Of a stretch of 64,000 nt of DNA, positions 8,772-50,562 are shown piece by piece (the first letter of the stretch is position 1; every line of letters starts with the position of its first letter). The DNA is from Acidovorax sp. NCPPB 4044 (lineage in GTDB: Bacteria > Pseudomonadota > Gammaproteobacteria > Burkholderiales > Burkholderiaceae_C), in contig NZ_JAMCOS010000001.1 in NCBI RefSeq assembly GCF_028069655.1, forward strand, positions 154,001 through 218,000, in the 5' to 3' direction. The notes under the pieces were generated by a model. The model saw only the letters and a list, made by a program, of their open reading frames with translations, ran no database searches and was not told where the DNA came from. The position numbers and the translations under genes were made by a program.

Positions 8772-10042
8772 GCGCAAGTGCGCCATCGCCAGGGCTCTGG
8801 CAGCGCATGACCGGCTGGTTCGGCGGCGGCGCCGCGCCTGCGGCCGACGTGCTGCCGGTGCGCGTGGGCGGTACCGAGTACCGCCAGACCACGACCACCC
8901 CGGCGCGCGTGCTGGGGTTCGACCAGGCGCTGCTCTGGGTGGTGGTGGCATTGCTGGCCTGGGGCCTGGTGATGGTGTATTCGGCCTCCATCGCCATGCC
9001 GGACAACCCCCGCTTCGGGAAGATCGCGCCCACCCACTTCCTCATGCGGCACATCATTGCCCTGGTGCTGGGCTTCGTGGCGGCGCTGCTCGCCTTCCAG
9101 GTGCCCATGTCCGCCTGGGAGCGCGTGGCGCCGTGGCTCTTCCTGCTTTCCATCGTCTTGCTGGTGGCGGTGCTCGTGCCGCACGTGGGCACGGTGGTCA
9201 ATGGTGCCCGCCGCTGGCTGTCGCTCGGGGTCATGAATTTCCAGCCCTCCGAACTGGCCAAGTTCGCCGTGCTCATCTACGCGGCCGACTACATGGTGCG
9301 CAAGATGGACGTGAAGGAGCGCTTCTTCCGCGCCGTGCTGCCCATGGGCGTGGCGGTGGCGGTGGTGGGCGTGCTGCTGCTGGCCGAGCCCGACATGGGC
9401 GCCTTCATGGTGATCGCCATCATCGCCATGGGCATCCTGTTCCTCGGCGGCGTGAACGCGCGGATGTTCTTCCTGATTGCCGCCGTGCTCGTGCTGGCCT
9501 TCGCCATCATGGTGATGGGAAGCCCCTGGCGGCGCGAGCGGATCTTCGCCTACCTCGATCCGTTCAGCGAGGCCCACGCGCTCGGCAAGGGCTACCAGCT
9601 CTCGCATTCGCTGATCGCCATCGGGCGTGGCGAGATCTTCGGCGTGGGCCTGGGCGGCAGCGTGGAAAAGCTGCACTGGCTGCCCGAGGCGCACACCGAC
9701 TTTCTGCTCGCGGTGATCGGCGAGGAATTCGGCCTGGCCGGCGTGCTCGTGCTGATCGTGCTCTTCTTCTGGATGACGCGCCGCATCATGCACATCGGCC
9801 GCCAGGCCATCGCGCTCGACCGCGTGTTCGCCGGCCTCGTCGCGCAGGGCGTGGCGATCTGGATGGGCTTCCAGGCCTTCATCAACATGGGCGTGAACCT
9901 GGGCGCGCTGCCCACCAAGGGCCTGACGCTGCCGCTCATGAGCTTCGGCGGCTCGGCCATCCTCATGAACCTCGTGGCCATCGCGGTGGTCCTGCGCGTG
10001 GATTATGAAAACAAGCACCTCATGCGCGGAGGCCGCGTATGA
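8768..10042 (+). CDS. ftsW: Septal peptidoglycan polymerase FtsW (SEDS family)
   Basis: The start at 8768 (ATGA overlap with murD) gives 424 residues with about ten transmembrane helices. Family hallmarks include NGARRWL, QPSELAK, the [16 protein letters not shown] region, the EEFGLAG segment and the SFGGSA C-terminal loop. FtsW polymerises lipid II with FtsI at the septum. The C-terminus ends MRGGRV, and its TGA lies within the first copy of the tandem repeat that separates ftsW from murG. Confidence 0.96.
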
Positions 10043-10055
10043 GGTGCTTGTTTCA
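10006..10055. repeat. Long imperfect inverted repeat at the ftsW stop
   Basis: The left arm 10006-10023 lies in ftsW codons (starts TGAAAACAAGC). It is the reverse complement, with one extra A, of the right arm 10039-10055 (ends GCTTGTTTCA). The 15-nt spacer is itself partly self-complementary (GCGCGG/CCGCGT), so RNA or single-stranded DNA could fold into a stem of about 22 bp that buries the ribosome site. The right arm looks like an inverted copy of ftsW coding DNA. Confidence 0.8.
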
Positions 10056-10209
10056 GCAAAACAACGCACCCGACGCGCGCCAGCGCGGCGAGGCGCGCAG
10101 CGCCCATGCGCGGAGGCCGCGTATGAGGTGCTTGTTTCACCAAAACAATGCACCCGACGCGCGCCAGCGCGGCGAGGCGCGCAGCGCCATGCGCGGAGGC
10201 CGCGTATGA
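10023..10209 (+). repeat. Tandem repeat (84 + 83 bp plus partial third copy) between ftsW and murG
   Basis: The module carrying the ftsW stop and the start signal (GCGCGGAGGCCGCGT then ATGAG) occurs three times, with ATG at 10039, 10123 and 10206. The spacings are 84 and 83 bp. The two full units differ at only a few bases (for example CAG/CAC and AAC/AAT) and by one deleted C. Each unit has a GGAGG Shine-Dalgarno sequence 6 nt before ATG, and a GC-rich palindrome (GCGCGCC ... GGCGCGC). The last ATG is the murG start. Confidence 0.95.
10039..10209 (+). CDS. 56-codon ORF filling the ftsW-murG gap (repeat-encoded)
   Basis: ATG at 10039 shares ATGA with the ftsW stop. The frame stays open through both repeat units. 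Its TGA at 10207-10209 shares ATGA with the murG start. The peptide is two near-copies beginning MRCLF(Q/H)[12 protein letters not shown]; the second ends MRGGRV, the same as the FtsW C-terminus, because of a one-base deletion. A functional protein is unlikely. More plausibly the frame is kept so ribosomes can travel from ftsW to murG. Each start has the same GGAGG ribosome site. Confidence 0.4.
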
Positions 10210-11276
10210 GCACGGCCCCCAGGACCGCCCTCGTCATGGCCGGTGGCACCGGTGGCCATATCTTCCCGGGCCTGGCCGTGGCCGAGGAACTGCGTGCGCG
10301 CGGCTGGCGCGTGCACTGGCTGGGCACGCCGGGCAGCATGGAGTCGCGCATCGTGCCGCCCCAGGGGTTTGCGTTCGAGCCCATCGATTTCTCGGGGGTG
10401 CGCGGCAAGGGCCTTGCCACCCTGGCGCTGCTGCCGCTGCGGTTGCTGCGCGCCTTCTGGCAGGCGCTGGCCGTGGTGCGCCGCGTGAAGCCCGACGTGG
10501 TCGTGGGCCTCGGTGGATACGTCACTTTCCCGGGCGGGATGATGGCCGTTCTGTGCGGTAAGCCGCTCGTGGTGCACGAGCAGAATTCCGTCGCGGGCCT
10601 GGTGAACAAGGTGCTGGCCGGAGTGGCCGACCGGGTGTTCACCGCGTTCCCGCAGGCGTTGAAGCAGGGCGCCTGGGTCGGCAATCCGCTGCGCGCGCCT
10701 TTCACGCGGCAGCCTGCGCCCGAGGCGCGCTTCGCGGGCCGCAGCGGTCCGCTGCGCCTGCTGGTGGTGGGGGGCAGCCTGGGCGCGAAGGCGCTCAACG
10801 ACATCGTGCCGCAGGCGCTCGCGCTGATTCCCGCGGAACGCCGCCCTGTGGTGGTGCACCAGAGCGGCGCCACGCAGATCGACGCACTGCGTGCGAACTA
10901 CGCCGCCGCCGGCGTGGACGCCACGCTGACCCCGTTCATCGACGACACCGCCACCGCATTCGCCGAAGCCGACCTCATCGTCTGCCGTGCGGGGGCGAGC
11001 ACGGTGACCGAAATCGCCGCCGTGGGCGCGGCCGCCGTCTTCGTGCCTTTCCCGCACGCGGTGGACGACCACCAGACGGCCAACGCCCGATTCCTGGCCA
11101 ATGCCGGCGGGGGATGGCTCGTGCAGCAGCGCGACCTGTCCGCCGAGGGGCTGGCCCAATTGCTACAAGACACGGAGCGCCCGGCGCTGCTGGAGCGCGC
11201 GCTGAAAGCCAAGACGATGCAGAAGATCCACGCCACCCGCGAAGTGGCCAACGCGTGCGAGGAGCTGGCCGCATGA
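10206..11276 (+). CDS. murG: UDP-GlcNAc transferase MurG (lipid II synthesis)
   Basis: The start at 10206 ([14 protein letters not shown]) has GGAGG 6 nt upstream and gives 356 residues, normal for MurG. The glycine-rich [10 protein letters not shown] loop is at about 13-22, followed by a second donor-binding motif with [11 protein letters not shown] and the HEQNS motif. It adds GlcNAc to lipid I at the inner face of the membrane. An in-frame ATG at 10005 would add 67 residues encoded by ftsW codons and the repeat; I reject that start. The stop overlaps murC (ATGA). Confidence 0.96.
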
Positions 11277-12691
11277 AGCACGCCATCCGCCATATCCATT
11301 TCGTGGGCCTCGGGGGCGCCGGCATGTGCGGCATCGCCGAAGTGCTGTTCAACCTGGGCTACGAGATCTCGGGCTCTGACCTCTCCGACAGCGCCACGCT
11401 GCGCCGCCTCGCGGCCCTGGGCATCGCTACGCACGTCGGCCATGCCGCCTCGAACATCGAAGGCGCCGATGCGGTGGTCACGTCCACCGCCGTGCAGGCC
11501 GACAACCCCGAAGTGCTGGCCGCACGCGAGCGCAAGATCCCGGTGGTGCCGCGCGCGCTCATGCTGGCCGAACTCATGCGGCTCAAGCGCGGCATCGCCA
11601 TCGCCGGCACGCACGGCAAGACGACCACCACGAGCCTGGTGACCAGCGTGCTCGCCGAAGCGGGGCTGGACCCGACGTTCGTGATCGGCGGGCGGCTCAA
11701 CAGCGCCGGCGCCAATGCCAAGCTGGGCGAGGGCGACTACATCGTGGTCGAGGCCGACGAGTCCGATGCCTCGTTCCTCAACCTGCTGCCGGTGATGGCG
11801 GTGGTGACGAACATCGACGCCGACCACATGGAAACCTATGGCCACGACTTCAACCGTCTGAAGTCGGCCTTCGTGGATTTCCTGCACCGGATGCCGTTCT
11901 ACGGCACGGCGATCCTCTGCACCGACAACCCGGCCATCCGCGAGATCCTGCCCGACGTCACCTGCCCTGTCACCAGCTACGGCTTCGCCGAAGGCGCGCA
12001 GGTACGGGCGGTGGACGTGCGCGCAGATGCGGGCCGCATGCGCTTCCGCGTCGAGCGGCGCAACGGCGTCACGCTGCCCGACCTCGACGTGGTGCTGAAC
12101 CTCGCGGGCGAGCACAACGTGCTCAATGCGCTGTCGGCGATCGCGGTGGCGGTGGAGCTGAACATCCCCGACGAGGCGCTGCTGCGCGCGCTCGCGCAGT
12201 TCAAGGGCGTGGGCCGGCGGTTCCAGCGCTACGGCGACCTGCCCGCGCAGGGCGGCGGCACGTTCACCCTGATCGAGGACTACGGGCACCACCCGGTCGA
12301 GATGACGGCGACGATCGCCGCGGCACGCGGTGCCTTTCCGGACCGTCGCCTGGTGCTGGCCTTCCAGCCGCACCGCTACAGCCGCACGCGCGACTGCTTC
12401 GAGGATTTCGTCAAGGTGATGGGCAGCGCCGATGCGGTGCTGCTGACCGAGGTGTATGCGGCCGGGGAGGCCCCGATCGTGGCGGCGGATGGCCGCTCGC
12501 TCGCGCGCGCCGTGCGGGTCGCCGGGCAGGTCGAGCCGGTCTTCATCGACGACATCGCCGAGCTGCCGCAGCGCATCGTGGACAACGCGCGCGGCGGCGA
12601 CGTGGTCCTCTGCATGGGCGCGGGCTCCATCGGGGCCGTGCCCGCGAAGGTGCTCGAAATGCTACAAAAAGAAGAGCAAACTATTCAATAA
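11273..12691 (+). CDS. murC: UDP-MurNAc:L-alanine ligase MurC
   Basis: A 472-residue Mur ligase that adds the first stem residue, L-Ala. It has the N-terminal [14 protein letters not shown] nucleotide fold, the [13 protein letters not shown] loop from about residue 111, EADESDASF, and the DDYGHHP-like motif (EDYGHHPVE). The start overlaps murG. The last residues (LQKEEQTIQ and the TAA) are written by a 44-bp dispersed element (12661-12704), so the native C-terminus has probably been replaced. Confidence 0.97.
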
Positions 12692-12704
12692 GGACGGCGG
12701 CATT
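12661..12704 (-). repeat. 44-bp dispersed element, copy A (murC end / ddl start)
   Basis: Read along murC it begins GCTACAAAAAGAAGAGC and ends in ACGGCGGCAT. About 36 of 44 positions match copy D at 46915-46958 (opposite strand). It supplies the murC stop codon and the AAGGA ribosome site of ddl. Confidence 0.75.
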
Positions 12705-13701
12705 GAACCCGAAAGACCTTGAAATCGACGTGCGTGCCCTCGGCAAGGTGGCCGTGCTCATGGGCGGCGACTCGGCAGAGCGCGAGGTGTCGCTCATGTC
12801 CGGCGGCGGCGTGCTGCAGGCACTGCGCGCGCGCGGCGTGGACGCGCACGCCTTCGACCCTTCGCAGACCGATCTCTCCGAGCTCAAGCGGCATGGCTAC
12901 GCACGCTGCTTCATCGCGCTGCACGGCCGCCATGGCGAGGACGGAACGGTGCAGGGCGCGCTGGAACTGCTGCGCATCCCCTACACGGGACCGGGCGTGA
13001 TGGCTTCCGCCATCGCCATGGACAAGATCATGACCAAGCGCATCTGGCGCTTCGAGGGCCTGCCCACGCCGGACTGGCGGCTCGTCGCGAGCGCGGCGGA
13101 AACCGCGCACGCGCTGGAGGCACTGGGTGCTCCGATGATCGTGAAGCCCGCGCGCGAAGGCTCGACCATCGGCCTCACCAAGGTCACGTCGCCCGGCCAG
13201 TGCGAGCAGGCCTACCGCCTCGCATCGCGCTACGACCCCGAGGTGCTGTGCGAGCAGTTCATCGAAGGCGACGAGACCACCTGCCCCGTGATGGGCCAGG
13301 GCGCGGGCGCGCACGCGCTGCCGCTCATCCACATCGTGGCGCCGCAGGGCAACTACGACTACCAGAACAAGTACTTCACCGACGTGACCCAGTACCGCTG
13401 CCCGAGCGGCCTGCCCGAGGCCGAGGAGCGCGAGATCCAGCGCCTCGTCGTCGAGGCCTACCGCACGCTGGGTTGCCGCGGCTGGGCCCGGGCGGACATC
13501 ATGGTCCGCGCGAGCGACCGCAAGCCCTTCCTGCTGGAGATCAACACCTCGCCGGGCATGACGGGCCATTCTCTGGTGCCGATGTCGGCGCGCGCCATGG
13601 GCGTGAGCTACGAAGAGCTGTGCCTGCGCATCCTCGCGGGCGCATCGCTCGATGCCAGCCAGGGCCACGAGCCCGCCACCGGAAACCCGGGAGCCGCATG
13701 A
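12703..13701 (+). CDS. ddl: D-alanine:D-alanine ligase
   Basis: A 332-residue ATP-grasp enzyme making D-Ala-D-Ala for MurF. Hallmarks are the [12 protein letters not shown]-terminal loop, [24 protein letters not shown] and the metal-site end [12 protein letters not shown]. The best start is TTG at 12703, 8 nt after AAGGA. A later ATG near 12759 would remove the first strand of the fold. The rare start codon and its ribosome site lie at the edge of a dispersed 44-bp element, which may affect expression. The stop overlaps ftsQ. Confidence 0.95.
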
Positions 13702-14558
13702 CCTCCGCCACGCTGCCTGCGCCGTTCGACGTCAAGCTCATGAACTGGACCGCCACGGTCCTCTTCGTGGGCTGTGCCGCGGCCGTGCTCATGGCGGCGG
13801 GATCGTGGGCGCGCCACCACCCGATGTTCGCCATCGGGCGCATCGTGGTGCAGGGGGAGCTGGTGCACAACAACGCGGTGACGCTGCGCGCCAACGTGGG
13901 CCCGCACCTCGTGGGCAACTTCTTCACCATGGACCTGAAGGCCGTGCGCGAGGCGTTCGAGCAGGTGCCCTGGGTCCGCCGGGCCCTGGTGCGGCGCGAG
14001 TTCCCGAACGGCCTGCGCGTCGAGCTGCAGGAGCACGACGCCTTCGCCTATTGGGGCCCGGAAGAGGGCGCGACGCTGCTCAGCACCGAGGGCGAGGTCT
14101 TCGAGGCCAGTGCCGACGATGTCGAGGACGACGAGCTCCCGCGGCTGCAGGGACCGCAGGGCCAGTCGCTCGAAGTGATGCGCATGTACCAGCGGCTCGC
14201 GCCGGCCGTGGAGCCCCTGGGTGCGCGGCTGGCCGTGCTGGAGCTTTCGAAGCGCGGCAGCTGGCGCGCATCGCTGGCGAGCGGAGCCGCGATCGAACTG
14301 GGGGGCGGCACGCCCGACGAAGTGGAAGCTCGCACCCGGCGCTTCGTGCGCACGGTGGCGCGCGTGGCGGGCCAGTACGGGCGCAGGCCCGATGCCCTTG
14401 AATCGGCCGATCTGCGCCATCCGGACGGCTACGCCATGCGCTTGCGCGGCGTGACCACGGTGGATGGCGATGCGCCCCGTGCCGCACCGGCGCGGGCGCG
14501 GGCAGTCCAACGGAACACAAACCCGGGCGCGCGGCGGGAGCCCCCGAGGAATCGCTGA
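13698..14558 (+). CDS. ftsQ: Cell division protein FtsQ
   Basis: A 286-residue bitopic protein. A short cytoplasmic N-terminus is followed by a membrane helix at about 17-38, a POTRA domain (about 46-115, with [14 protein letters not shown] and [30 protein letters not shown]) and a C-terminal FtsQ domain. It scaffolds FtsL/FtsB at the septum. The Arg/Pro-rich tail after about residue 262 appears disordered. The start overlaps ddl, and ftsA follows after 22 nt. Confidence 0.94.
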
Positions 14559-14580
14559 CCCAAGTCAGGACACACAAGAT

Positions 14581-15810
14581 ATGGCACGAGAATACAAAGA
14601 CGTGGTGGTGGGGCTGGACATCGGGACGGCCAAGGTGATGGCCGTCGTGGCCGAGGTGCTGCCGGGCGGCGAGCTGAAGCTCGCGGGCCTGGGCGTGGCG
14701 CCGAGCAATGGCCTCAAGCGCGGCGTGGTGGTCAACATCGACGCTACGGTGCAGAGCATCCAGCAGGCCTTGAAGGAGGCCGAGCTGATGGCCGACTGCA
14801 AGATCCAGCGCGTCTACACGGGCATCACGGGCAGCCACATCCGGGGCCTCAACTCGAGCGGCATGGTGGCCGTGAAGGACAAGGAGGTCACCCCCGCCGA
14901 CGTGGCGCGCGTGGTCGAGACCGCCAAGGCCATCAACATCTCCAGCGACCAGCGCCTGCTGCTCGTGGAGCCGCAGGAATTCGTGATCGACGGGCAGGAC
15001 GTGAAAGAGCCCATCGGCATGAGCGGCATCCGCCTGGAGGCCAAGATCCACATCGTGACCGGTGCGCAGAGCGCGGCCGAGAACATCATCAAATGCGTGC
15101 GCCGCTGCGGCCTGGAAGTGGAGCAACTGATGCTCAATCCGCTAGCCTCCAGCCAGGCGGTGCTGACCGACGACGAGCGCGAACTCGGCGTGGCCGTGGT
15201 GGACGTGGGCGCGGGCACGACCGACGTCGCGATCTTCACGGGCGGCGCCATCCGGCACACGGCCGTCATCCCGATCGCGGGCGACCTCATCACGAGCGAC
15301 ATCGCCATGGCGCTGCGCACGCCCACCAAGGACGCGGAGGACATCAAGGTCGAGAGCGGCTATGCGAAGCAGCTGCTCGCCGACCCCGAGGCCCAGGTAG
15401 AGGTGCCGGGCCTGGGCGACCGCAGTCCGCGCATGCTGTCCAAGCAGGCGCTGGCCGGCGTGATCGAGCCGCGCGTGGAGGAGATCTTCTCGCTCGTGCA
15501 GCAGGTGATCCGCGAGTCGGGCTACGAGGAAGTGCTCTCGTCGGGCATCGTGCTGACGGGTGGCAGCGCCATCATGCCGGGCATGGTCGAACTGGGCGAG
15601 GACATCTTCCTGAAGCCCGTGCGGCGCGGCATTCCAAAGTATTCCAGCGCTTTGTCTGACATGGTGGCCCAGCCGCGTGCTGCTACCGTTATGGGTTTGC
15701 TCGAAGAAGCGCGGCAGGCCCGTCTTCGGGGGTTCAAGGTGGCGCAAAAGAGCGGCTCGGTGAAAACCGCATTCGGCCGCTTCAAAGATTTCATCATCGG
15801 GAACTTCTGA
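14581..15810 (+). CDS. ftsA: Cell division protein FtsA
   Basis: A 409-residue actin-fold ATPase that tethers FtsZ to the membrane. Nucleotide-site segments are VVVGLDIGTAKVMAVV (start), VVDVGAGTTDVAIF (middle) and SSGIVLTGGSAIMPG (C-terminal). The amphipathic membrane-targeting helix is likely the last about 15 residues (FGRFKDFIIGNF). The 22-nt gap before it contains a weak AGGA. ATG at 14581 is supported by the conserved MAREYKDVVVGLDIG opening. Confidence 0.97.
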   Translation: MAREYKDVVVGLDIGTAKVMAVVAEVLPGGELKLAGLGVAPSNGLKRGVVVNIDATVQSIQQALKEAELMADCKIQRVYTGITGSHIRGLNSSGMVAVKDKEVTPADVARVVETAKAINISSDQRLLLVEPQEFVIDGQDVKEPIGMSGIRLEAKIHIVTGAQSAAENIIKCVRRCGLEVEQLMLNPLASSQAVLTDDERELGVAVVDVGAGTTDVAIFTGGAIRHTAVIPIAGDLITSDIAMALRTPTKDAEDIKVESGYAKQLLADPEAQVEVPGLGDRSPRMLSKQALAGVIEPRVEEIFSLVQQVIRESGYEEVLSSGIVLTGGSAIMPGMVELGEDIFLKPVRRGIPKYSSALSDMVAQPRAATVMGLLEEARQARLRGFKVAQKSGSVKTAFGRFKDFIIGNF

Positions 15811-15990
15811 GATGTACGCCCATCTGCACCGGCTTGCCCGCGGGAGTCCCCTGGCTTCCTGCCGCCACCGATGGCGGAGCACCGGCCCGCCTTCCACAGC
15901 CGCAGCACCGTTTTTTTTGAATCCCCGACCGGCCGTAGGTATCGGCCAATCGCACATCTCACGTGAAAGACCAGGACTAGGAGCACCAGC

Positions 15991-17223: not shown

Positions 17224-17225
17224 CC

Positions 17226-17277
17226 GGCGCCTCCCTGAGCCGCCTTCGGCGCCTCCCTGAGCCGCCTTCGGCGCCTT
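17226..17277. repeat. 22-bp tandem repeat with adjoining hairpin downstream of ftsZ
   Basis: A 22-bp unit (GGCGCCTCCCTGAGCCGCCTTC) occurs twice, at 17226-17247 and 17248-17269, followed by a partial third unit. It runs into a CTTCCCCC-AA-GGGGGA hairpin. Repeats of this style are frequent between Comamonadaceae genes as far as I recall. They resemble REP elements. Confidence 0.85.
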
Positions 17278-17350
17278 CCCCCAAGGGGGACGACGCCGGT
17301 GGCCCGGCGAAGCCGGTTCCACGGCGTCTGCTGGCATGGCCTGCTCCGCG

Positions 17351-17381
17351 GCCTCCCGAAGAGGGAGGCCGTTTGCTTTCT
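17351..17381 (+). terminator. Terminator-like hairpin after ftsZ
   Basis: Stem GGCCTCCC (17351-17358) pairs perfectly with GGGAGGCC (17364-17371) across a 5-nt loop and is followed by GTTTGCTTT. A plausible intrinsic terminator for the dcw transcript. Confidence 0.65.
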
Positions 17382-17446
17382 GGCGTTGTGCTCCGAAGCA
17401 GGGTTCCGTCGCGTCCTGTTGGATGGTGGCGGTAGCGGTGAACATC

Positions 17447-17480
17447 CCCCGCTCCTGCACGGCGCGGGGCGGTTTTTTGT
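17447..17480 (+). terminator. Second terminator upstream of lpxC
   Basis: CCCCGC (17447-17452) pairs with GCGGGG (17464-17469), followed by CGGTTTTTTG. The T-run makes this the stronger intrinsic terminator of the two in the ftsZ-lpxC gap. It suggests lpxC has its own promoter. Confidence 0.65.
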
Positions 17481-17497
17481 TTCCGATGTGACGTTCG

Positions 17498-17516
17498 GGC
17501 TATGCGCGCCATAGCC
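17498..17516. promoter_or_regulatory. Perfect 7-bp inverted repeat upstream of lpxC
   Basis: GGCTATG-CGCGC-CATAGCC ends 43 nt before the lpxC ATG, after the terminators, where an lpxC promoter or 5' leader should be. It could be an operator or an mRNA hairpin. No regulator is identified. Confidence 0.35.
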
Positions 17517-17559
17517 TTGGATACGAGCAGGGAAGGGTGCCGCCACCTAAAATCCCGGG

Positions 17560-18483: not shown

Positions 18484-18490
18484 GCCGGCC

Positions 18491-18667: not shown

Positions 18668-18685
18668 CCACGTGCCAGCGCGGTG

Positions 18686-18714: not shown

Positions 18715-18721
18715 CGCGCCT

Positions 18722-20749
<2,028 letters not shown>

Positions 20750-20774
20750 GCCTCCGCTGCCCGGCCGCCAGCAG

Positions 20775-39456: not shown

Positions 39457-39477
39457 CTGCGCAGGCGGCCGCTGCGT

Positions 39478-40851: not shown

Positions 40852-40985
40852 GCGGAATGTCTCCTGGAAAGTGGCGGGCAAAAGCGCGAAGCGCATTCTT
40901 GCAGGCCGAACGAGAGGCCACGCCACCGTGCGGGATGTGCCCGGGCAATGCGGCAGGGGCTGCCCCGGGCTTCTAGAATCCGCCC

Positions 40986-42449
<1,464 letters not shown>

Positions 42450-42517
42450 CCTGATCCCTCTCCCGGATGGGCCGGTCGCTTGCCGGCGGTCCACGCTTCT
42501 TGCGGAGGCAGAAACAC

Positions 42518-42553
42518 AAAAGCCCGGCGTGGGCCATCCCGCCGGGCTTTTTT
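42518..42553. terminator. Bidirectional intrinsic terminator after tldD
   Basis: AAAAGCCCGGCG (42518-42529) pairs perfectly with CGCCGGGCTTTT (42540-42551), leaving T-runs on both strands. It serves tldD (+) and the membrane protein gene ending at 42580 (-). Confidence 0.92.
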
Positions 42554-42579
42554 GCGAGCGCCCCCGGGGCGCTTGCAGA

Positions 42580-43587
42580 TCAGGCTGCCACGATCACGCC
42601 GGCAGGGCGCTGGCGGCGGAAACCGAGCATGCCGCAGCCCGCGGCCACTGCCGCGCCGATGAGCAGTACCACCAGCGTGCCCCAGGAGCCGCGGGCCACG
42701 TTCTTGGCGGCTTCGGCGCCTGCTTCCCGGGCTTTCTGCTCGGCCTGCTGTTTGGCTTCTTCCAGCTTGGCGCGGGCCTGGTTGTAGGTCTGCTCGTAGT
42801 TGTTGGCGATCTGTTCGGCTTCGGCGCGGGACTTGCCGGTGCGGGCCATGATGATGTTGATCAGCGCTTCCTTGTCTGCCGCGTTCAACACCCGTTCGCC
42901 GCGTTGCAGGACGCCGGCCAGCCAGCCCTTGGCGTCCGCATCGGCATTCTGCGGCGCCGTGGCGGCGCTCTCGGCGCTGGCCTGGCCCTGGCTGGCGGCG
43001 GCCTGTGCTTCGTTCTTCAGGTTCTCGGGTTGCAGTTCGGGCTTGCCGGTCTGGCGCAGCAGCTTTTCCAGTTCGGACTGCAGGCTGTTCGCGTCCAGTG
43101 AAATGCCGGCCTGGTCCAGCTGGCGCTGCACTGCATTGCCCACCGCGGGTGCGGCGGCCGAAACCCCCGCGCCGGCCACGGCGCCTACGGTGGCGAGCCC
43201 GGTCTTGGCTGCGCCGCCCGCCACGTTGAGTGCGCTGCCGGTGGCACTGACCAGCAGATAGACCGTGACCAGGGTGGTGAGCCCCCAGGCCAGCAGGCCA
43301 TGCAGCGCTCCCGAGCGCCGTGCCAGATAGCCCGCCACGAAGCCCCCCACCGCAATCGCCAGCAGCGTCGTTGCGCCGGCCCAGATGCCTGCGCCCATGC
43401 CGAAGCCGCTGAAAGGATTGCGGTCACCCAGCGGGTCGATCGCCGAGGCGCCAATCGCCGTCCCCAGGACGGACAGAACCAGGTAGACGATCAGCGACAG
43501 GACGAGACCGGCGAACACGGCGCCCCATGAAACGGTGGGAGTCCAGAGGCGCTCCTCGTGGAGGGTGGCGGTGGAGTGGATGGACAT
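42580..43587 (-). CDS. Membrane protein with coiled-coil domain (function unknown)
   Basis: 335 residues. Three to four hydrophobic helices lie in the first 130 residues (GAVFAGLVLSLIVYLVLSVLG, GAGIWAGATTLLAIAVGGFVAG, LTTLVTVYLLVSA). A long Ala/Gln/Glu-rich helical region (about 150-300) and a final membrane helix (LVVLLIGAAVAAGCGMLG) follow. Similar proteins are sometimes annotated PhnA-like; I do not trust that name functionally. A perfect 6-bp inverted repeat lies about 70 nt upstream. Confidence 0.8.
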   Translation of the reverse strand: MSIHSTATLHEERLWTPTVSWGAVFAGLVLSLIVYLVLSVLGTAIGASAIDPLGDRNPFSGFGMGAGIWAGATTLLAIAVGGFVAGYLARRSGALHGLLAWGLTTLVTVYLLVSATGSALNVAGGAAKTGLATVGAVAGAGVSAAAPAVGNAVQRQLDQAGISLDANSLQSELEKLLRQTGKPELQPENLKNEAQAAASQGQASAESAATAPQNADADAKGWLAGVLQRGERVLNAADKEALINIIMARTGKSRAEAEQIANNYEQTYNQARAKLEEAKQQAEQKAREAGAEAAKNVARGSWGTLVVLLIGAAVAAGCGMLGFRRQRPAGVIVAA

Positions 43588-43994
43588 GATCGGCTTTCTG
43601 GTTACTGAGGGGACGCGCAGCCAACAAAGGCGGCGAGTGGAAGGTGAGGAACGGTTTCACCGGACCGGGTCCGGACCCTGGCGCTGGCCTTGGCGGGTAC
43701 GGTCGAGCTTAGAAAACTGCTGTAACCGTCTGCGTCGCCTGAAGCACCGGGTTACCGTAGGACAACTGCCGAACGGCCGAGCCTTGGGCTCTCAGCCCGC
43801 TTTGTGTCGGGTACTGCGGCCGTGCTCGCTTGTGCAAGGAATGCTCTGGCTTGCAAAAGTCTTGTTACATTGGGCCCATGCCTGACGGTTTCTTTCCCGA
43901 TTGCCGTCCCTGCCTGCCGGCCCGTGCCGTGCAGCCGCGGATGCGGTGCCCGACCGAGAAGGGTTCCCGCGGCTGAGGATGCACGCCCGACACC
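43588..43994. other. 407-nt intergenic region
   Basis: No gene of convincing length. Contains CCGGAC-CGG-GTCCGG (43660-43674) and, on the + strand, an extended -10-like TGTTACATT (43864-43871... last base 43871). Six nt after it an ATG opens a 32-codon ORF (43878-43976) that would be leaderless if that promoter is real. No Shine-Dalgarno lies before it. Confidence 0.5.
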
Positions 43995-44561
43995 ATGGCC
44001 ATCACCCGCACGCAGCTTCCCACCAGCCTGCAGACCTTCGGCGACATCAGCCGGCTGCTGCGCGAAGGCGTGGCGGACGAAGACTCGCGGCAATTCCGCG
44101 ATGCCCTCACCGCGCTGTCCGGGCTGGTAGAGAAGGCCCTTCAGACCCGCCGCGCGCCCGGCGCCCATCCCGACGCCGTGCTGCAGTGCGCCGGCCAGTT
44201 GCTCGACGAGGCCCGCGAGCACCAGCGGTTCCTGACCGGGCTGGGCTCGGCGTGGCATGCGCTCTACGAATTCGCCGCCTACGAGAACGCCATGCGCCAG
44301 CTGGTCCGCACCACGGCGGCATGGCAGCAGGCCCTGCAACGCCGCAGCCGCAACGAAGCCCAGTGCTTCCAGGCCTTCGAAGGCCATGCGTGGCGTGCGC
44401 TCGGGGAAGCCGTGCTCGTGATCGACATGTACGAGCAGGGCGGCATGGGCACCAGCGAGCTGCAGGGCCTGCTGGGCGATAGCGAGCCGCCGCCCGGTCG
44501 CCGGCGCGGCTGGTGGGGCCGCATCGGGGGCTGGTTGGCCCGGGGCCGCACCGGGCGCTGA
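43995..44561 (+). CDS. Hypothetical protein, helical (188 aa)
   Basis: 188 residues, mostly helical, with no signal peptide or membrane segment. It begins MAITRTQLPTSLQTFGDISRLL and has an Arg/Gly-rich tail. Not recognised. Base composition and codon use match its neighbours, which supports a real gene. It lies between a membrane protein gene and the aroG leader region. Confidence 0.65.
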   Translation: MAITRTQLPTSLQTFGDISRLLREGVADEDSRQFRDALTALSGLVEKALQTRRAPGAHPDAVLQCAGQLLDEAREHQRFLTGLGSAWHALYEFAAYENAMRQLVRTTAAWQQALQRRSRNEAQCFQAFEGHAWRALGEAVLVIDMYEQGGMGTSELQGLLGDSEPPPGRRRGWWGRIGGWLARGRTGR

Positions 44562-44653
44562 TCGCCTGCGTACCGCACCGGACGCGGCTCCTGTCGCCGT
44601 CGCACAACGCGGCAGTGTGCCGCGCCGCGAAAAAGAGTGCTACATTGCCAGCC

Positions 44654-44713
44654 ATGCCGATTCGCAGCGCGTTTTATTTTTGGTCCTTTTGGTTCTCTGT
44701 CCCTGGCGGATGA
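44654..44713 (+). CDS. Aromatic-rich leader peptide of aroG
   Basis: The 19-codon ORF encodes MPIRSAFYFWSFWFSVPGG: codons 7-14 contain four Phe, two Trp and one Tyr. It ends 40 nt before a terminator hairpin upstream of a DAHP synthase gene, whose product starts the synthesis of just these amino acids. No Shine-Dalgarno sequence is visible. An extended -10-like TGCTACATT (44638-44646) would put transcription initiation at or near the ATG, so the leader could be translated from a leaderless start. Confidence 0.75.
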   Translation: MPIRSAFYFWSFWFSVPGG

Positions 44714-44791
44714 GAGGTTAGCGCGCAACCACCCAAAGCACCTACCCCTGACGACCGCCGAAGCTGAAAAGCCCGGCGGTTTTTTGTTTTT
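44705..44791 (+). promoter_or_regulatory. Transcription attenuator of aroG
   Basis: The terminator stem ACCGCCG (44754-44760) with CGGCGGT (44774-44780) is followed by TTTTTGTTTTT. GGCGG at 44705-44709, inside leader codons 18-19, can pair with CCGCC at 44755-44759 and so block the terminator. GGTT/AACC (44716-44719 with 44727-44730) makes a possible pause hairpin. Ribosomes stalled at the Phe/Tyr/Trp codons would leave GGCGG free (read-through). Ribosomes reaching the stop codon would cover it (termination). Confidence 0.75.
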
Positions 44792-44852
44792 CCAGCCTCC
44801 CGTTTTCCGTCCCGATCCCTTTTCCACCGAATCCACCCACGAGGAAGCAGCC

Positions 44853-45998
44853 ATGACGGCCCCAGTCCACTCCGCCCAGTCCGCCAGCGATGCCTGGTAC
44901 CGCAACGTCGAGAAAACCAGCCAGACCGACGACGAACGTATCAAGGACATCACCGTGTTGCCTCCTCCCGAACATCTGATCCGCTTCTTCCCCATCCGGG
45001 GCACGCCGATAGAGACGCTGATCTCCCGCACGCGCCAGCGCATCCAGGACATCATGGCCCGCCGCGACGACCGGCTGCTCGTGGTGATCGGTCCCTGTTC
45101 CATCCACGATCCTGCCGCTGCGCTGGAATACGCCCGCCGCCTGCAGTCGGTGCGCGCGCAGTACGCCGACACGCTGGAGATCGTGATGCGCGTGTATTTC
45201 GAGAAGCCGCGCACCACGGTGGGCTGGAAGGGCCTGATAAACGACCCCTACCTCGACGAGAGCTACCGCATCGACGAGGGCCTGCGCATCGCCCGCCAGC
45301 TGCTCATCGACATCAACCGGCTGGGCGTGCCGGCCGGCAGCGAGTTCCTCGATGTGATCTCGCCCCAATACATCGGCGACCTCATCAGCTGGGGCGCCAT
45401 CGGCGCGCGCACCACGGAAAGCCAGGTGCACCGCGAACTGGCTTCCGGGCTGTCCGCCCCCATCGGCTTCAAGAACGGCACGGACGGCAACATCCGCATC
45501 GCCACCGACGCGATCCAGTCCGCGAGCCGCGGGCACCACTTCCTGTCGGTGCACAAAAACGGCCAGGTCGCCATCGTCAACACGCAGGGCAACCGCGACT
45601 GCCATGTGATCCTGCGCGGCGGAAAGACCCCCAATTACGACGCCGACAGCGTGGCCGCCGCCTGCAAGGACCTGGAAGCTGCCAAGCTGCCGCCCACGCT
45701 CATGGTGGACTGCAGCCACGCCAACAGCAGCAAGCAGCACGAGCGCCAGCGCGACGTGGCACGCGACATCGGCGGACAGATCGCGGGCGGATCGCACAGC
45801 ATCTTCGGCGTGATGATCGAAAGCCACCTCGTGGCCGGCGCGCAGAAATTCACGCCCGGCAAGGACGATGTCTGCGCGATCGAGTACGGCAAGAGCATCA
45901 CCGACGCGTGCCTGGGCTGGGACGATTCGCTCGGGGTGCTGGCCGAACTGTCCACCGCCGTCGCGGCGCGCCGCAGCGCCGTGGCCCTGGCGGCCTGA
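44853..45998 (+). CDS. aroG: 3-deoxy-7-phosphoheptulonate (DAHP) synthase
   Basis: A 381-residue class I DAHP synthase, condensing PEP and erythrose 4-phosphate in the first shikimate step. Active-site segments are VVIGPCSIHDPAAALEYA, VYFEKPRTTVGWKG, GARTTESQVHRELASG and the metal residues in DCSHANSSK. ATG at 44853 follows GAGGAAGC. Which aromatic amino acid inhibits it (Phe, Tyr or Trp type) cannot be told by eye. The mixed leader peptide suggests response to all three. Confidence 0.95.
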   Translation: MTAPVHSAQSASDAWYRNVEKTSQTDDERIKDITVLPPPEHLIRFFPIRGTPIETLISRTRQRIQDIMARRDDRLLVVIGPCSIHDPAAALEYARRLQSVRAQYADTLEIVMRVYFEKPRTTVGWKGLINDPYLDESYRIDEGLRIARQLLIDINRLGVPAGSEFLDVISPQYIGDLISWGAIGARTTESQVHRELASGLSAPIGFKNGTDGNIRIATDAIQSASRGHHFLSVHKNGQVAIVNTQGNRDCHVILRGGKTPNYDADSVAAACKDLEAAKLPPTLMVDCSHANSSKQHERQRDVARDIGGQIAGGSHSIFGVMIESHLVAGAQKFTPGKDDVCAIEYGKSITDACLGWDDSLGVLAELSTAVAARRSAVALAA

Positions 45999-46035
45999 CA
46001 GCGCACCCTGCTTCATTGAACCCTCAGGAGGCACC

Positions 46036-46323
46036 GTGTCATCGAATGAAAACAACGCTGCGGGCGGCACTGCTCCGGACCATCGGCTGGAGGCTTTGAA
46101 GGCCTTGATGGAATCGTCTCCCGTGTTCCGGGAGATGCCGGATCTGCAGGACTGGCTGCAGACATTCCGCGCGGTGCTCGATATGAAGGTCCGCGTGGAT
46201 CACCAGGGCAGAGTGGTGGTTCCCGCGGGCACCCTCGTCCATGTGCCCGGCAAAGCCGTCCGGGAGGACGTTCAATTCACCATCGGTTCGGACGGTGTGA
46301 ACATCATGGTCGCGACCCGTTGA
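46036..46323 (+). CDS. Hypothetical protein (95 aa, GTG start)
   Basis: GTG at 46036 follows a strong CAGGAGG ribosome site, 37 nt after the aroG stop. The 95-residue frame starts (M)SSNENNAAGG. It has a possible helical N-terminal half and beta-rich C-terminal half (VRVDHQGRVVVPAGTLVHVPG, VQFTIGSDGVNIMVATR). Not recognised. It may be cotranscribed with aroG. Confidence 0.65.
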   Translation: MSSNENNAAGGTAPDHRLEALKALMESSPVFREMPDLQDWLQTFRAVLDMKVRVDHQGRVVVPAGTLVHVPGKAVREDVQFTIGSDGVNIMVATR

Positions 46324-46473
46324 TCGCGCCCGGCAGGCCGGGAGAGGGGTTTCCCCCGGGCCCCGGCGCGGAGGGCCGTGTAAGCTTTTCGGCAGATGCC
46401 CGATGCAGCGGGGCCCCGTGCGTGCGGGTGGAGGCTTCCCTGCATTCCTAGCAACCCGCCGAAAGAGATCTCC

Positions 46474-46782
46474 ATGCGCAGCGAAGTCACCGTCCTCCTC
46501 GGACCCGGCCAGGAATTCCGATTCGACCTCGAAGGCGAGGCGCCCATGGCCCACGAGATCGCGCGCCGCTGGCTCGATGACGAATTCGTGCGCCTGGAAT
46601 GCGAGCCGCTGCGTGCCAGCGGCAAGGTGCTGACCGCCGACAAGGTGCTCACGGTGGCGCAGGCCGCAGGGCCTGCGTTGCTGGCCCAGGGCTGGGGCCG
46701 CGAATTCGCGCTGGCGGCCACCGCGGCGCTGGCCCGGCCGGTCGTGCGGGTCGATCTGCCGGCCATGGCGATCAGCTACTGA
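46474..46782 (+). CDS. Hypothetical protein (102 aa)
   Basis: 102 residues from ATG at 46474, with GAAAGAG a few nt upstream. It begins MRSEVTVLLGPGQEF. There is a mixed alpha/beta appearance and an Ala-rich second half, with no signal peptide. Not recognised. Convergent with mpl. Confidence 0.6.
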   Translation: MRSEVTVLLGPGQEFRFDLEGEAPMAHEIARRWLDDEFVRLECEPLRASGKVLTADKVLTVAQAAGPALLAQGWGREFALAATAALARPVVRVDLPAMAISY

Positions 46783-46914
46783 AGCTAAGGGCTGTCAACT
46801 GGTGAACGTGGGGGCGGCGGCTGGCCGTGATGCAGGACCGTCTGCGGCTTCTCGCCGGCTTCTGCGGATGGCGGCCTCTGGATGTAGCTGGCATGAGTTT
46901 GATGAAATATGCTC

Positions 46915-46958
46915 CATGCCGCCGTATCCATTGAATAGTTTGCTATTGATTTTGTAGC
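46915..46958 (+). repeat. 44-bp dispersed element, copy D (end of mpl)
   Basis: Begins CATGCCGCCGTATCCATTG and ends in GCTATTGATTTTGTAGC, which forms a GCTA/TAGC hairpin. It supplies the last codons (LQNQ) and the stop of mpl on the minus strand, in the same orientation relative to the gene as copies A (murC) and C (aroE). Confidence 0.75.
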
Positions 46959-48355
46959 GAATCGAGCAGCCTGGCGTGGATGCCCCCGAAGCTGCCGTTG
47001 CTCATGCAGACCACATGGTCGCCTGGCCGGGCCGCTGCGGTGATCTGCGCCACGAGCGCATCGATGTCTGCGGCAGTGCGTGCCCGGTCTCCCAGGGGCG
47101 CCATCACGGCGGCCGCGTCCCAGTCCAGCCCTGCCGTGTGGCAGAACGCCAGATCGGCGCTTTCCAGTGCCCACGGCAACTGCGACTTCATGGTGCCCAG
47201 TTTCATCGTGTTGCTGCGCGGCTCGAACGCGGCCAGGATGCGCGCCTGCGGGCCGATGCGGCGGCGCAGGCCGTCGAGCGTCGTGCGCAGGGCGGTGGGG
47301 TGGTGAGCGAAGTCGTCGTACACCGCGATGCCGTTGGCCGTGCCGCGCAGCTCCATGCGCCGCTTGACGTTCTGGAACCGGGCCAGCGCCGCCGCTGCGT
47401 CGGCAGGATCGACCCCCACATGCTCGGCCGCGGCGATGGCCGCCAGCGCGTTGAGCTGGTTGTGCACCCCGGTGAGTGCCCACTCCACGCGCGCTACCGG
47501 GCGGTCGCCCCGCAGCACATCGAATGCCTGAGGCTCGCCCCGGGCGGAAAAATCGCTGACGGCGGCGCCGAAGCTGGCCACGCCGCTCCAGCAGCCTTCG
47601 TGCAGCACGCGGGCCAGGCTTTCTTCGAGACCGTTGACCACCACGCGCCCCGAAGGCGGCACGGTGCGCACGAGATGGTGGAACTGCCGCTCGATCGCGC
47701 GCAGGTCGTCGAAGATGTCGGCGTGGTCGAATTCGAGGTTGTTCAGCACGGCCGTGCGCGGGCGGTAGTGCACGAACTTGCTGCGCTTGTCGAAGAAAGC
47801 GGTGTCGTATTCGTCGGCTTCGATGACGAAGAGCGGCGCGCTGCCGGCCGGCCCGTCGGAGGCCACCGGCCGTTGCGGCGTGCCCAGCCGCGCGGACACG
47901 CCGAAATCGAGGGGTACGCCCCCCACCAGAAACCCGGGCTGCAGACCCGCGCATTCCAGGATCCAGGCCAGCATGGACGTGGTGGTGGTCTTGCCGTGGG
48001 TGCCGGCCACGGCCAGCACGTGGCGCCCCTGGAGGACATGCTCGGCCAGCCACTGGGGGCCGCTGGTGTAGGGCGCGCCCGCGTCCAGGATGGCTTCCAT
48101 CAGCGGGAACTTGGGGCTGCCATCGGCCAGCCGTGCGCGGCTCACCACGTTGCCCACCACGAACATGTCCGGCGCCAGGTCGAGCTGCCCGGCACCATAG
48201 CCCTCGATGAGTTCGATGCCCAATGCCCGCAACTGGTCGCTCATCGGCGGGTACACCCCGGTATCGCAGCCCGTGACCTTGTGGCCGGCTTCCCGCGCCA
48301 GCGCGGCCAGGCCCCCCATGAACGTTCCGCAGATGCCCAGAATGTGTATATGCAT
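46943..48355 (-). CDS. mpl: Murein tripeptide ligase Mpl
   Basis: A 470-residue Mur-ligase family enzyme that re-attaches the recycled tripeptide L-Ala-D-Glu-meso-DAP to UDP-MurNAc. The N-terminal HILGICGTFMGGLAALA, the [18 protein letters not shown] loop and the YDDFAHHPTALR motif separate it from MurC. It pairs functionally with AmpD in this window. The final codons and stop are supplied by a 44-bp element. Confidence 0.94.
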   Translation of the reverse strand: MHIHILGICGTFMGGLAALAREAGHKVTGCDTGVYPPMSDQLRALGIELIEGYGAGQLDLAPDMFVVGNVVSRARLADGSPKFPLMEAILDAGAPYTSGPQWLAEHVLQGRHVLAVAGTHGKTTTTSMLAWILECAGLQPGFLVGGVPLDFGVSARLGTPQRPVASDGPAGSAPLFVIEADEYDTAFFDKRSKFVHYRPRTAVLNNLEFDHADIFDDLRAIERQFHHLVRTVPPSGRVVVNGLEESLARVLHEGCWSGVASFGAAVSDFSARGEPQAFDVLRGDRPVARVEWALTGVHNQLNALAAIAAAEHVGVDPADAAAALARFQNVKRRMELRGTANGIAVYDDFAHHPTALRTTLDGLRRRIGPQARILAAFEPRSNTMKLGTMKSQLPWALESADLAFCHTAGLDWDAAAVMAPLGDRARTAADIDALVAQITAAARPGDHVVCMSNGSFGGIHARLLDSLQNQ

Positions 48356-48547
48356 GGGCGCCGATTCTACGGTTGGGGTCCGGCCCGCCCCGTGCCGCCG
48401 CCGAGGCTCGAGCCGCTGCTATTTTTTCAGGAGTGCGCGCGGCAGGGCAGTGCCAAGACCCCGCGCGCCGCGGGCGCATTGGACGCCGCGCGGCGGTGGC
48501 TCCGCGCCACAATGCGTGCTTCCTTCCCTTCCACCCGAGACGCCGCC

Positions 48548-49150
48548 ATGCCCAACGCACTCGCCCCCGAGATCGCCAACGCCGCCGCCCGCCTCGTCGT
48601 CGAGGAGGGGATGGAATGGGGGCCCGCCAAGCGGCGGGCCGTCCGCCAGCTGGGGTTGCCGGCCCGCACCGCGCTGCCCGACAACGACCTGGTCGAGGAC
48701 GCCGTGCGCGAATACATCGGCCTTTTCTGCGCCGACACCCAGCCGGCCGAACTGCGCGCGTTGCGCGAACTGGCCCTGCTCTGGATGGAGCGCCTGGCCG
48801 AGTTCCGGCCCCATCTGGGCGGGGCGGTGTGGTACGGCACGGCCACGCGCCTTTCGGACATCTACCTGCAGCTCTTCTGCGATGACTGCAAATCGGCCGA
48901 GATCTCGCTCATCGACCACCACGTGGATTACGAGCCCCGCACGGTCACGGGCTTCCATGGCGAATCGGTGGAGGCGCTCAGCCTGTCGAGCCACTCGCCC
49001 GCCCTGGGCGAGGCGATCGGCGTGCACCTGCTTGTCTATGATCTGGACGATCTGCGCGGCGCGCTCCGGCCCGACGCGCGCGGGCGGGTTCAGCGGGGTG
49101 ACGCCCGGGCCGTTCGCAAACTTCTGGACAACGAGGACACCCCTTCATGA
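48548..49150 (+). CDS. Conserved hypothetical protein (200 aa)
   Basis: 200 residues. The central block GGAVWYGTATRLSDIYLQLFCDDCKSAEISLIDH is reminiscent of nucleotidyltransferase-like folds, but without a clear catalytic triad, so I give no function. ATG at 48548 is chosen as the first start in a compositionally consistent frame. The stop overlaps the TlpA-like gene (ATGA at 49147-49150), so they are coupled. The 192-nt gap to divergent mpl holds no gene. Confidence 0.7.
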   Translation: MPNALAPEIANAAARLVVEEGMEWGPAKRRAVRQLGLPARTALPDNDLVEDAVREYIGLFCADTQPAELRALRELALLWMERLAEFRPHLGGAVWYGTATRLSDIYLQLFCDDCKSAEISLIDHHVDYEPRTVTGFHGESVEALSLSSHSPALGEAIGVHLLVYDLDDLRGALRPDARGRVQRGDARAVRKLLDNEDTPS

Positions 49151-49725
49151 CCGATCTTCCCGAGGCCGGGGGCCCCGGCACGCCGTCGCCCCTGAGCCCC
49201 TCGCGCCGCCGCGCGCTCTATGCCGGTGCGGCGGTCGTGGCCGCTGCGGGTGGTGCCGGCCTGGCGTGGTGGCGCCTGCAGCCCCATGCGGCGGAGCCGG
49301 GTGCCGAGGCCGCACTGTGGACACAGCGCTTCGACGCGCCGCAGCAGGGCGCCGCGGCGCTCGACATGCAGGCGTTCCGGGGCAAGCCCATGCTGGTGAA
49401 CTTCTGGGCCACCTGGTGCCCCCCGTGCGTGGAAGAGCTTCCGATGCTCAATGCTTTCTATCGCACGCATAAAGAAAAGGGTTGGCAGGTCGTGGGCCTG
49501 GCTATAGACCAGCCTTCGGCGGTGCGCCAGTTCCTGGCCCGCGTGCCTCTGGATTTCCCGATCGGCCTTGCAGGCCTGCAAGGAACCGACCTGGGGCGCA
49601 GCCTGGGCAACCTCACGGGAGGCCTTCCATTTACCGTGCTTTTGGGCGCAGATGGCAGCATCCGGCACCGTAAAATGGGCCAAGTCACCGCCGAAGACCT
49701 CACGCAGTGGGCATCGCTGGCATGA
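49147..49725 (+). CDS. TlpA-family thiol:disulfide oxidoreductase
   Basis: 192 residues. A Pro/Ser-rich N-terminus and membrane anchor (about 22-45) lead into a periplasmic thioredoxin fold with the WCPPC active site in [17 protein letters not shown] and a cis-Pro segment [11 protein letters not shown] likely role is periplasmic disulfide reduction or cytochrome c maturation. Translationally coupled to the preceding hypothetical gene; accB follows after 109 nt. Confidence 0.9.
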
Positions 49726-49834
49726 AGTTCCTGTCTTTCCATATGAAGATAATGGAATTTGCGGCCGGATAGAGGTTGAAGGCATAAATTGGGGTAAATT
49801 CGCGCCCTATTTCGTTTTAGGCGTTGGAGTCCCC

Positions 49835-50284
49835 ATGGATTTGCGAAAACTCAAGACCTTGATTGACCTCGTTTCCGAGTCGAATGTGTCGGAACTCGAG
49901 ATTACCGAGGCGGAAGGCAAGGTTCGCATCGTCAAGAGCGGTGGCGCTGTCGTCCAGCAATTCGTGGCAGCCCCGGTGGCCGCTCCCACCGCCCCGGCGC
50001 CCGCAGCCGCCGCCCCCGTGGCCGAGTTGCCCGCGCCTGCTGCACCCACCGGCCATATCGTCAAGTCCCCCATGGTGGGCACGTTCTACCGGGCGTCCAG
50101 CCCGGGTGCCAAGTCGTTCGTCGAAGTCGGCAGCCAGGTCAAGGAAGGCGACACCATCTGCATCATCGAGGCCATGAAGATCCTCAACGAAATCGAAGCC
50201 GACAAGACCGGAACGGTCACGCGCATCCTGGGCGAGAACGGCCAGGCCGTCGAATACGGACAACCGCTGTTCGTCATCGAATAA
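49835..50284 (+). CDS. accB: Biotin carboxyl carrier protein of acetyl-CoA carboxylase
   Basis: 149 residues. An N-terminal helix region ([16 protein letters not shown]), a Pro/Ala linker (about 46-72) and a biotinyl domain with EAMKI follow (biotin Lys115). It carries CO2 from AccC to AccA/AccD, which are elsewhere. ATG follows TTGGAG. The 270-nt gap to accC is filled by duplicated copies of the accC start region. Confidence 0.96.
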
Positions 50285-50337
50285 GCTCCCGGCGCCGCGT
50301 TCCCCGTTGATGCCTGCCGCAAACCAGGACACTCCCT

Positions 50338-50562
50338 TGAAAGAGATCCTCGTTGCCGCTGCCGCGGTCATGCCGCAGGCAGGCGGGACCGGCCGCAGTG
50401 GCGCACGCCTACGCCCATGCGCGGGCGATGCATCGCCGGAAAGCCATGTTTAAAAAGATCCTTGTCGCCCACCGCGGCGGTCGCGCCGCAGGCAAGGCGA
50501 AGCAGATCGCAGTGGCGCATGCCAGTGCGCGGGCGATGAACCGCCGGAAAGCCTATGTTTAA
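50338..50562 (+). repeat. Tandem decayed copies of the accC translation-start region
   Basis: Segments matching the first codons of accC (ATGTTTAAAAAGATCCTTG) start at about 50338 (diverged: TTGAAAGAGATCCTCGTTGCC), 50446 and, as the real gene, 50555. Spacing is about 108-109 bp. Each unit also carries a GC-rich middle (GCCGCAGGC) and a CCGGAAAGCC ribosome-site segment. U1 and U2 share GCGCGGGCGATG followed by the CGCCGGAAAGCC block. The copies read as overlapping short ORFs. Confidence 0.85.
50446..50562 (+). CDS. 38-codon ORF mimicking the AccC N-terminus
   Basis: ATG at 50446 has CCGGAAAGCC upstream, as accC does. The product begins [16 protein letters not shown], against [16 protein letters not shown] in AccC. 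Its TAA (50560-50562) falls within ATGTTTAA, 8 nt inside accC. A TTG-initiated frame from 50338 ends the same way within this ORF's start (TAA at 50451-50453). Probably not a functional protein, but the geometry suggests re-initiation coupling. Confidence 0.4.

Follow-up and report, generated by a model that had tools for sequence, protein, structure and literature searches.

The window analysed here, a stretch of 64,000 nucleotides (nt) from Acidovorax sp. NCPPB 4044 (contig NZ_JAMCOS010000001.1, positions 154,001 to 218,000), contains two arrays of short tandem repeats, one at the ftsW-murG junction and one between accB and accC. The source genome (G000, 5.32 megabases, Mb) belongs to a plant-associated bacterium, which its relatives place in the genus Paracidovorax. 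The four flanking genes encode ordinary FtsW, MurG, AccB and AccC according to Pfam. A preliminary description of this DNA had grouped both arrays into one class of repeat that duplicates the start signal of the following gene, and had proposed a family of elements inserting at translation starts. The anatomy that it gave holds: units of 84 and 83 nt precede murG (10021-10210), two units of 109 nt precede accC (50337-50562), both arrays have GC-rich palindromic cores, and both are read as coupled open reading frames (ORFs). Coordinates are collected in Table 1.

The murG array is built from parts that can be recognised one by one. They follow each other in the order F-P-F^rc-F'-hairpins-P, which we call the 'cassette', where F is the 3' end of ftsW, P is the start signal ATGCGCGGAGGCCGCGTATGA with its Shine-Dalgarno sequence, and F^rc is an inverted copy of the adjacent F. 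Three copies of P are present, the third of which includes the native start of murG. The ORF that crosses both units is 56 codons long, and its TGA lies within the ATGA of murG. F, P and F^rc together form a perfect 21-bp hairpin around GGAGG and ATG, with a folding energy of -36.9 kcal/mol for the RNA. The protein encoded by this micro-ORF matched no Pfam family, and a protein search returned nothing at expectation values (E) up to 1. A dispersed repeat at L004-L006 was considered as a source of the murG core and rejected, the likeness (about 20 nt) being within the range of other GC-rich matches.

Table 1. Features of the two arrays and their flanking genes (window coordinates)
Feature	Position	Strand	Basis and remarks
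ftsW	8657..10042	+	Pfam FTSW_RODA_SPOVE 8.5e-103; predicted GTG start 8657; last 12 codons including stop are the source of F and P
F, ftsW 3' segment GAAAACAAGCACCTC	10007..10021	+	sequence
P copy 1, palindromic start signal (GGAGG); includes the ftsW stop and the ATGA overlap	10022..10042	+	sequence
F^rc, inverted copy of F	10041..10053	+	with F and P: perfect 21-bp hairpin 10009-10053
F', imperfect direct copy of F (AAAACAACGCACC)	10058..10070	+	sequence
Hairpin A, loop GCCA	10071..10090	+	folding
Hairpin B, GGCGC-GCA-GCGCC	10092..10104	+	folding
P copy 2, opens unit 2	10106..10126	+	sequence
P copy 3, includes murG start ATG at 10206	10189..10209	+	sequence
Micro-ORF MRCLFQQN...MRGGRV* across both murG units, 4-nt overlap at each end	10039..10209	+	ORF reading
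murG	10206..11276	+	Pfam Glyco_transf_28
accB	49835..50284	+	Pfam Biotin_lipoyl
accC array unit 1, degenerate: TTG ORF, end within next ATGTTTAA	50337..50453	+	ORF reading
accC array unit 2: copy of accC N-terminus, end within accC start	50446..50562	+	ORF reading
accC	50555..51904	+	Pfam Biotin_carb_N

The distribution of the cassette was analysed in 250 genomes of the family. A search with the P pattern (at most two mismatches) matched 63 genomes, 18 of which carried 2 to 4 tandem copies. Among the 23 tandem spacings obtained from these 18 genomes, 18 were of the form 3n-1, 5 of the form 3n, and none of the form 3n+1; a second contig of G156 with the same repeat was excluded, as its end falls within the repeat. 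Another sample consisted of 80 named loci picked by MurG similarity alone, and not for inserts. Seventy-eight of these junctions were read: 60 were 'empty' (gap up to 80 nt), 12 held a hairpin cassette, and 6 held another GC-rich insert (L345 was later also read as empty). When all loci were included, inserts were present in 38 of 109 distinct junctions; a second pass with a wider motif, run on the loci that the first had left unread and on L345, added 8 more, and five loci (L279, L298, L371, L372 and L376) were unread in both passes. All 46 inserted junctions keep unbroken 4-nt overlaps from FtsW to MurG. Coupling proceeds via separate micro-ORFs in 39 of them, and via a longer MurG N-terminus in the other 7 (L263, L297, L322, L341, L343, L351 and L357). 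Most micro-ORFs terminate in the FtsW tail of their own genome, for example MRGGRV, MKGGRS or MHGGRL. The other GC-rich insert lies at the N-terminus of MurG, in its reading frame, in L297, L322, L341, L343, L351 and L357, and it is similar to the surroundings of a hairpin module of genome G213 that is described below.

We then compared each inverted arm with the F segments of all junctions. This comparison comprised 34 distinct inserted junctions, 26 of which were of the hairpin type; the 8 of other type were set aside. F^rc fitted its own F above every other F in 21 of the 26, while in 5 it was equalled by 1 to 3 other F's; in the 8 remaining junctions, some other F always scored at least as well as the own F. 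Fourteen of the 26 hairpin-type arms reached the top score of 13. For all nine arrays with at least two units, the first arm fitted the host F no worse than the later arms did, and strictly better in three. From the local fit of F^rc and the fit of the first arm, it follows that F and F^rc were either made together or kept matched. An arm swap within the cores gave 97 and 96% pairing for own arms and 55 and 40% for swapped arms (12 and 9 distinct arm pairs, 16 of 24 cores).

The hairpins have a marked loop composition. Across 24 distinct murG cores, 38 of 45 loops were GNA or GNNA, compared to 123 of 1606 (7.7%) in shuffled sequences. A C-G pair closed 32 of the 38 (cGNAg or cGNNAg), and 13 of the 14 GNNA tetraloops were not GNRA. 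Closure by C-G and tetraloops other than GNRA identify these loops as being of the DNA type. Judging by the titles of Nakano 2002 and Yoshizawa 1997, d(cGNNAg) and GNA are said to be stable DNA loops. Elsewhere in G000, GCA was not preferred among perfect hairpins that have a 3-nt loop and a stem of 7 bp or more (8 of 422). The DNA-type loops, together with this lack of preference elsewhere, favour single-stranded DNA rather than RNA as the folding molecule.

Junctions differ even between close relatives. Among 17 genomes of the genus, the murG junction had no unit in 6, one in 6 and two in 5; for accC, the reading of the junctions gave no unit in 4, one in 8 and two in 5. The genus tree was based on both genes for 10 of the 17 genomes and on murG alone for 7. 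Sister species differ in murG units in three cases: two in G000 and none in G005, two in G013 and none in G016, two in G011 and none in G010. The empty murG site retains one P, as expected from precise deletion between P repeats. When insertions and deletions were compared between G000 and each of G005 and G002, murG alone had an empty site with an overlap exceeding 9 nt.

G000 itself was scanned for direct repeats 45 to 160 nt apart, over 1.764 of its 5.32 Mb. Three clear gene-boundary arrays were found, those of murG, accC and the 3' end of metK, besides an array of clustered regularly interspaced short palindromic repeats (CRISPR) and many coding repeats, which were not each inspected. The preliminary description had called for further start-adjacent copies; in this portion of the genome, only the start arrays of murG and accC stood out. 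The CRISPR array lies outside the window, at about G000:C1 1125092-1131400, with a 32-nt repeat (GTTTCAATCCACGCGCCCACGTAGGGCGCGAC) and a spacing of mostly 65-68. The scan also met a possible fourth, degenerate duplication of a gene end, likewise outside the window (G000:C1:4080699), in which the last codons, GDKIIDRV*, have a near-copy 128 nt downstream with hairpins between. A tandem duplication of 89 nt with a hairpin is located at G000:C1:2087493.

The metK array proved to have counterparts at other genes. It consists of tandem 115-nt units in G000, and across the genus it is a fast-changing run of hairpins. We designated part of this run, GGCTCAYRTCGC-GMA-GCGAYRTGAAG, 'module M'. With at most one mismatch allowed, the pattern matched 38 of the 250 family genomes, with 29 copies in G213, 5 in G119 and 0 to 3 in all others; its reversed control matched none of the 250. 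In an alignment of 23 copies, 46 double-changed cells were counted against 17.2 in shuffles, and 94.9% of cells were paired; an outer stem, TTC..GAA / GGC..GCC, is present. Module M is also present at the ftsW-murG junction in another group of genomes, which we take to be Roseateles-like. It is found again in two genera (G213 and G144) at the 3' end of a gene that is presumably argF, from its C-terminal sequence, and there F-P-F^rc-M-F'-P recurs, with the boundary GAAAAC/GTTTC in G213 and GAGAAC/GGTTCC in G144. A covariance model of M gave 31.1 and 30.8 bits for metK in G000, 27.2 bits for the murG core of G048 and 23.6 bits for that of G120; these two murG cores bridge to module M. One 62-nt copy of M had no match in a plasmid collection, and the exact pattern had none in viral contigs. 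In G213 (L391-L405), module M often lies within another GC-rich repeat, and several copies closely follow a possible stop codon.

At accC, the first 34 nt of the gene recur at 50446 (31 of 34 identical) and, in degenerate form, at 50337, with a spacing of 109. The TAA of each resulting ORF lies within the next ATGTTTAA. The accC inserts have hairpins with GCA or GCCA loops, start copies and coupled ORFs. The M model matched the accC inserts of G015 (18.6 bits, E 0.0027) and G012 (13.6 bits) on the sense strand; the G015 alignment covers the outer stem only, both inner hairpins being passed over. The accC array fits the same class by its architecture, outcome and hairpin style, a placement that is not proven by sequence.

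The preliminary description had linked the two arrays by an exact 13-mer, CGCCCATGCGCGG, which is indeed present at 10101 (murG) and at 50412 (accC). On both strands of the 1.764 Mb of G000, these were the only two sites, so the 13-mer is not a motif at background frequency in this genome. Random pairs of windows share some exact 13-mer in about 1% of cases (146 of 20000, or 123 of 10000 when matched for GC content). Thirty-four loci spanning both junctions in the 17 genus genomes were then inspected. At murG, the 13-mer requires an extra C that is unseen in relatives; at accC, it is missing even in G005, the closest relative, where the region is 95% identical and unit 1 differs. As only the two loci of G000 hold it among the 34, we conclude that the 13-mer is a coincidence and not a family mark; it arose separately at each site and is no sign of kinship.

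On balance, we favour the reading that the murG array is a junction cassette produced by fold-back template switching at the palindromic P, followed by slippage and filtered by translational coupling. We infer the following course of events. A nascent strand would fold back at P, so that F is copied backwards into F^rc; a hairpin module with cGNAg or cGNNAg loops would then be captured or extended, and the template rejoined upstream of P, which would leave P duplicated. Once P is repeated, units could be gained or precisely lost through slippage or recombination. Survivors would be those in which translation from FtsW to MurG stays coupled, the unit being, or being fused into, a micro-ORF with 4-nt overlaps, and further template switching could keep F and F^rc matched. 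As a by-effect, the pairing of F with F^rc would bury the Shine-Dalgarno sequence and the start until ribosomes complete ftsW, and may therefore gate murG more tightly.

Template-switch mutations, as presented in parts of PMC8794818 and PMC8604942, resemble the murG case by reverse-complement copying beside a palindrome and by the homogenisation of arms, both of which are described there. The cassette likewise holds a reverse-complement copy of the adjacent sequence, fitting its own F best in most junctions. In those accounts, however, stems are mended and reverse-complement copies are made within one region, whereas here a cassette of about 84 nt recurs that contains a hairpin module and duplicates the start signal. 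Coupling of serial genes by termination and reinitiation at 4-nt ATGA overlaps, treated in sections of PMC6728339, is similar to what is found here, except that the cassette adds extra micro-ORFs to the chain. No report on repeats at ftsW-murG in this family was found among the open PubMed Central (PMC) papers searched.

Several observations weigh against fold-back template switching as a full account. Insertion is deduced from finished sequences, no event having been watched, and the genomes counted are related, so that the counts lack independence. Twelve of the 26 hairpin-type arms fall short of the maximum score of 13, so exact pairing is not essential. Of 31 loops that minimum-energy folding gave for 13 distinct accC cores, only 7 are GNA or GNNA; G003, G002 and G007 yielded none. 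The M model reports neither the murG nor the accC core of the window, and the kinship of these two cores, which had been proposed from a loose alignment, is not borne out. The best Paracidovorax murG core (P. citrulli-type; G014, G004 and G002) gives 18.5 bits (E 0.0027), which a match inside the murG gene of G007 equals, and ordinary-looking coding DNA of G000 yields a likely chance match of 23.9 bits (1.664 Mb searched). A U-G pair on the sense strand is kept in 12 of the 23 copies of M, and selection on RNA could explain part of the covariation. Lastly, finding module M at several different genes points to movement, for which fold-back by itself does not account. We tentatively consider, as a possible extension, that the modules are self-propagating single-stranded DNA hairpins that enter by fold-back copying at GAAAAC-like sites beside gene boundaries, without a transposase, and that each would write an inverted flank and a duplicate boundary, from which new overlapping micro-genes arise.

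A different reading is that the insert is a conserved cis-regulatory RNA, in which re-initiation at murG is gated by the F:F^rc pairing together with the hairpins, and selection for the folded mRNA accounts for the compensatory changes. The perfect 21-bp hairpin around GGAGG and ATG and the sense-strand U-G pairs of module M speak for it, and, according to PMC6728339, downstream genes are known to be gated in this way, the upstream ORF pairing with the start and thereby burying it. We nevertheless find it doubtful: 60 of the 80 loci not picked for inserts have none, and sister species lack it too; the loops are of the DNA type, not GNRA; and 12 of 26 arms do not reach the top score. Moreover, Rfam gave no match at gathering score for the window arrays, and none at E up to 0.5 for 7 loci.

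Mobile elements were considered as well. Repetitive extragenic palindromes (REP) and bacterial interspersed mosaic elements (BIME), moved by a Y1 transposase of the REP-associated tyrosine transposase (RAYT) type that acts on hairpins, share with module M the preserved complementarity of hairpins, tandem expansion and the capture of gene 3' ends, BIMEs being able to incorporate rayt 3' ends (PMC2817692). Module M is a hairpin element present at several genes, in 38 genomes and up to 29 copies. Such an origin is unlikely, however. The pattern has only 1-3 copies in most matched genomes, whereas REPs usually exceed 100 per genome, and the GT(A/G)G head of REP is found as GTAG in 1 of the 23 aligned copies (L406), 16 having GCAG there. 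The Y1 family (PF01797), searched in five genomes, was absent from the module carriers G213, with its 29 copies, and G144, and had one member each in G000, G008 and G119. The duplicated target is also long and differs by site. A Y1-type transposase-like ORF is located at G000:C1:426923-427798, and the 600 nt on each side of it contain no REP-like hairpins.

Rickettsia palindromic elements (RPE) and other ORF-bearing miniature inverted-repeat transposable elements (MITEs) of bacteria, in the account given by part of PMC2229807, are palindromic inserts of about 100 nt with a gene-compatible open frame, and are similar in this respect. The cassette differs from that account in its location at gene junctions, in the second copy that it makes of a start or stop region, and in its inverted copy of the local flank; in most cases, neither protein is altered. 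Where RPEs insert in frame within genes, the hairpin cassette is a separate overlapping ORF next to complete FtsW and MurG; the exception is 7 of 38 inserts, of another type, which lengthen MurG. Nor is there the constant short target-site duplication of MITEs, as the host DNA duplicated amounts to about 21 nt at murG, 34 nt at accC and more at argF.

That two unrelated plain tandem duplications merely look alike is quite improbable. It would agree with the coincidental 13-mer, with the absence of any common exact stretch of at least 14 nt between the accC and murG arrays, and with slippage, which accounts for the step from one unit to two; yet duplication yields neither F^rc nor the hairpins, empty junctions lack that sequence, and the same cassette recurs at ftsW-murG across genera. 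For murG, plain duplication is already disfavoured. An element targeting translation starts, as first proposed from murG and accC in G000, is very improbable, given that at metK and argF it is the 3' end of the gene, stop codon included, that is duplicated, and that the 1.764 Mb of G000 scanned yielded just two conspicuous start arrays. What stands of the proposed class is that hairpin inserts recur in which a gene boundary is duplicated together with its start signal and the ORFs stay coupled; they are not specific to starts.

The ftsW-murG junction therefore offers a natural and repeatedly replayed case in which an insert of several hairpins has apparently been built by template switching at an essential gene junction. 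The match of F^rc to F constitutes an internal record by which each event can be tested, and both template switching and the origin of micro-ORFs can be tested directly in sister species, which have 0, 1 or 2 units. New overlapping ORFs arise there with the neighbouring proteins intact, which bears on the evolution of micro-ORFs and of translational coupling.

Three other features were observed in the window. A thiamine pyrophosphate (TPP) riboswitch was detected at 18716-18825 on the plus strand (57.7 bits). A 22-nt tandem repeat at 17225-17276 lies directly 3' of the stop codon of a gene that we take to be ftsZ. Finally, long alanine- and lysine-rich codon repeats occupy 55841-56330 on the minus strand, in a gene presumed to be of the histone-H1-like type.

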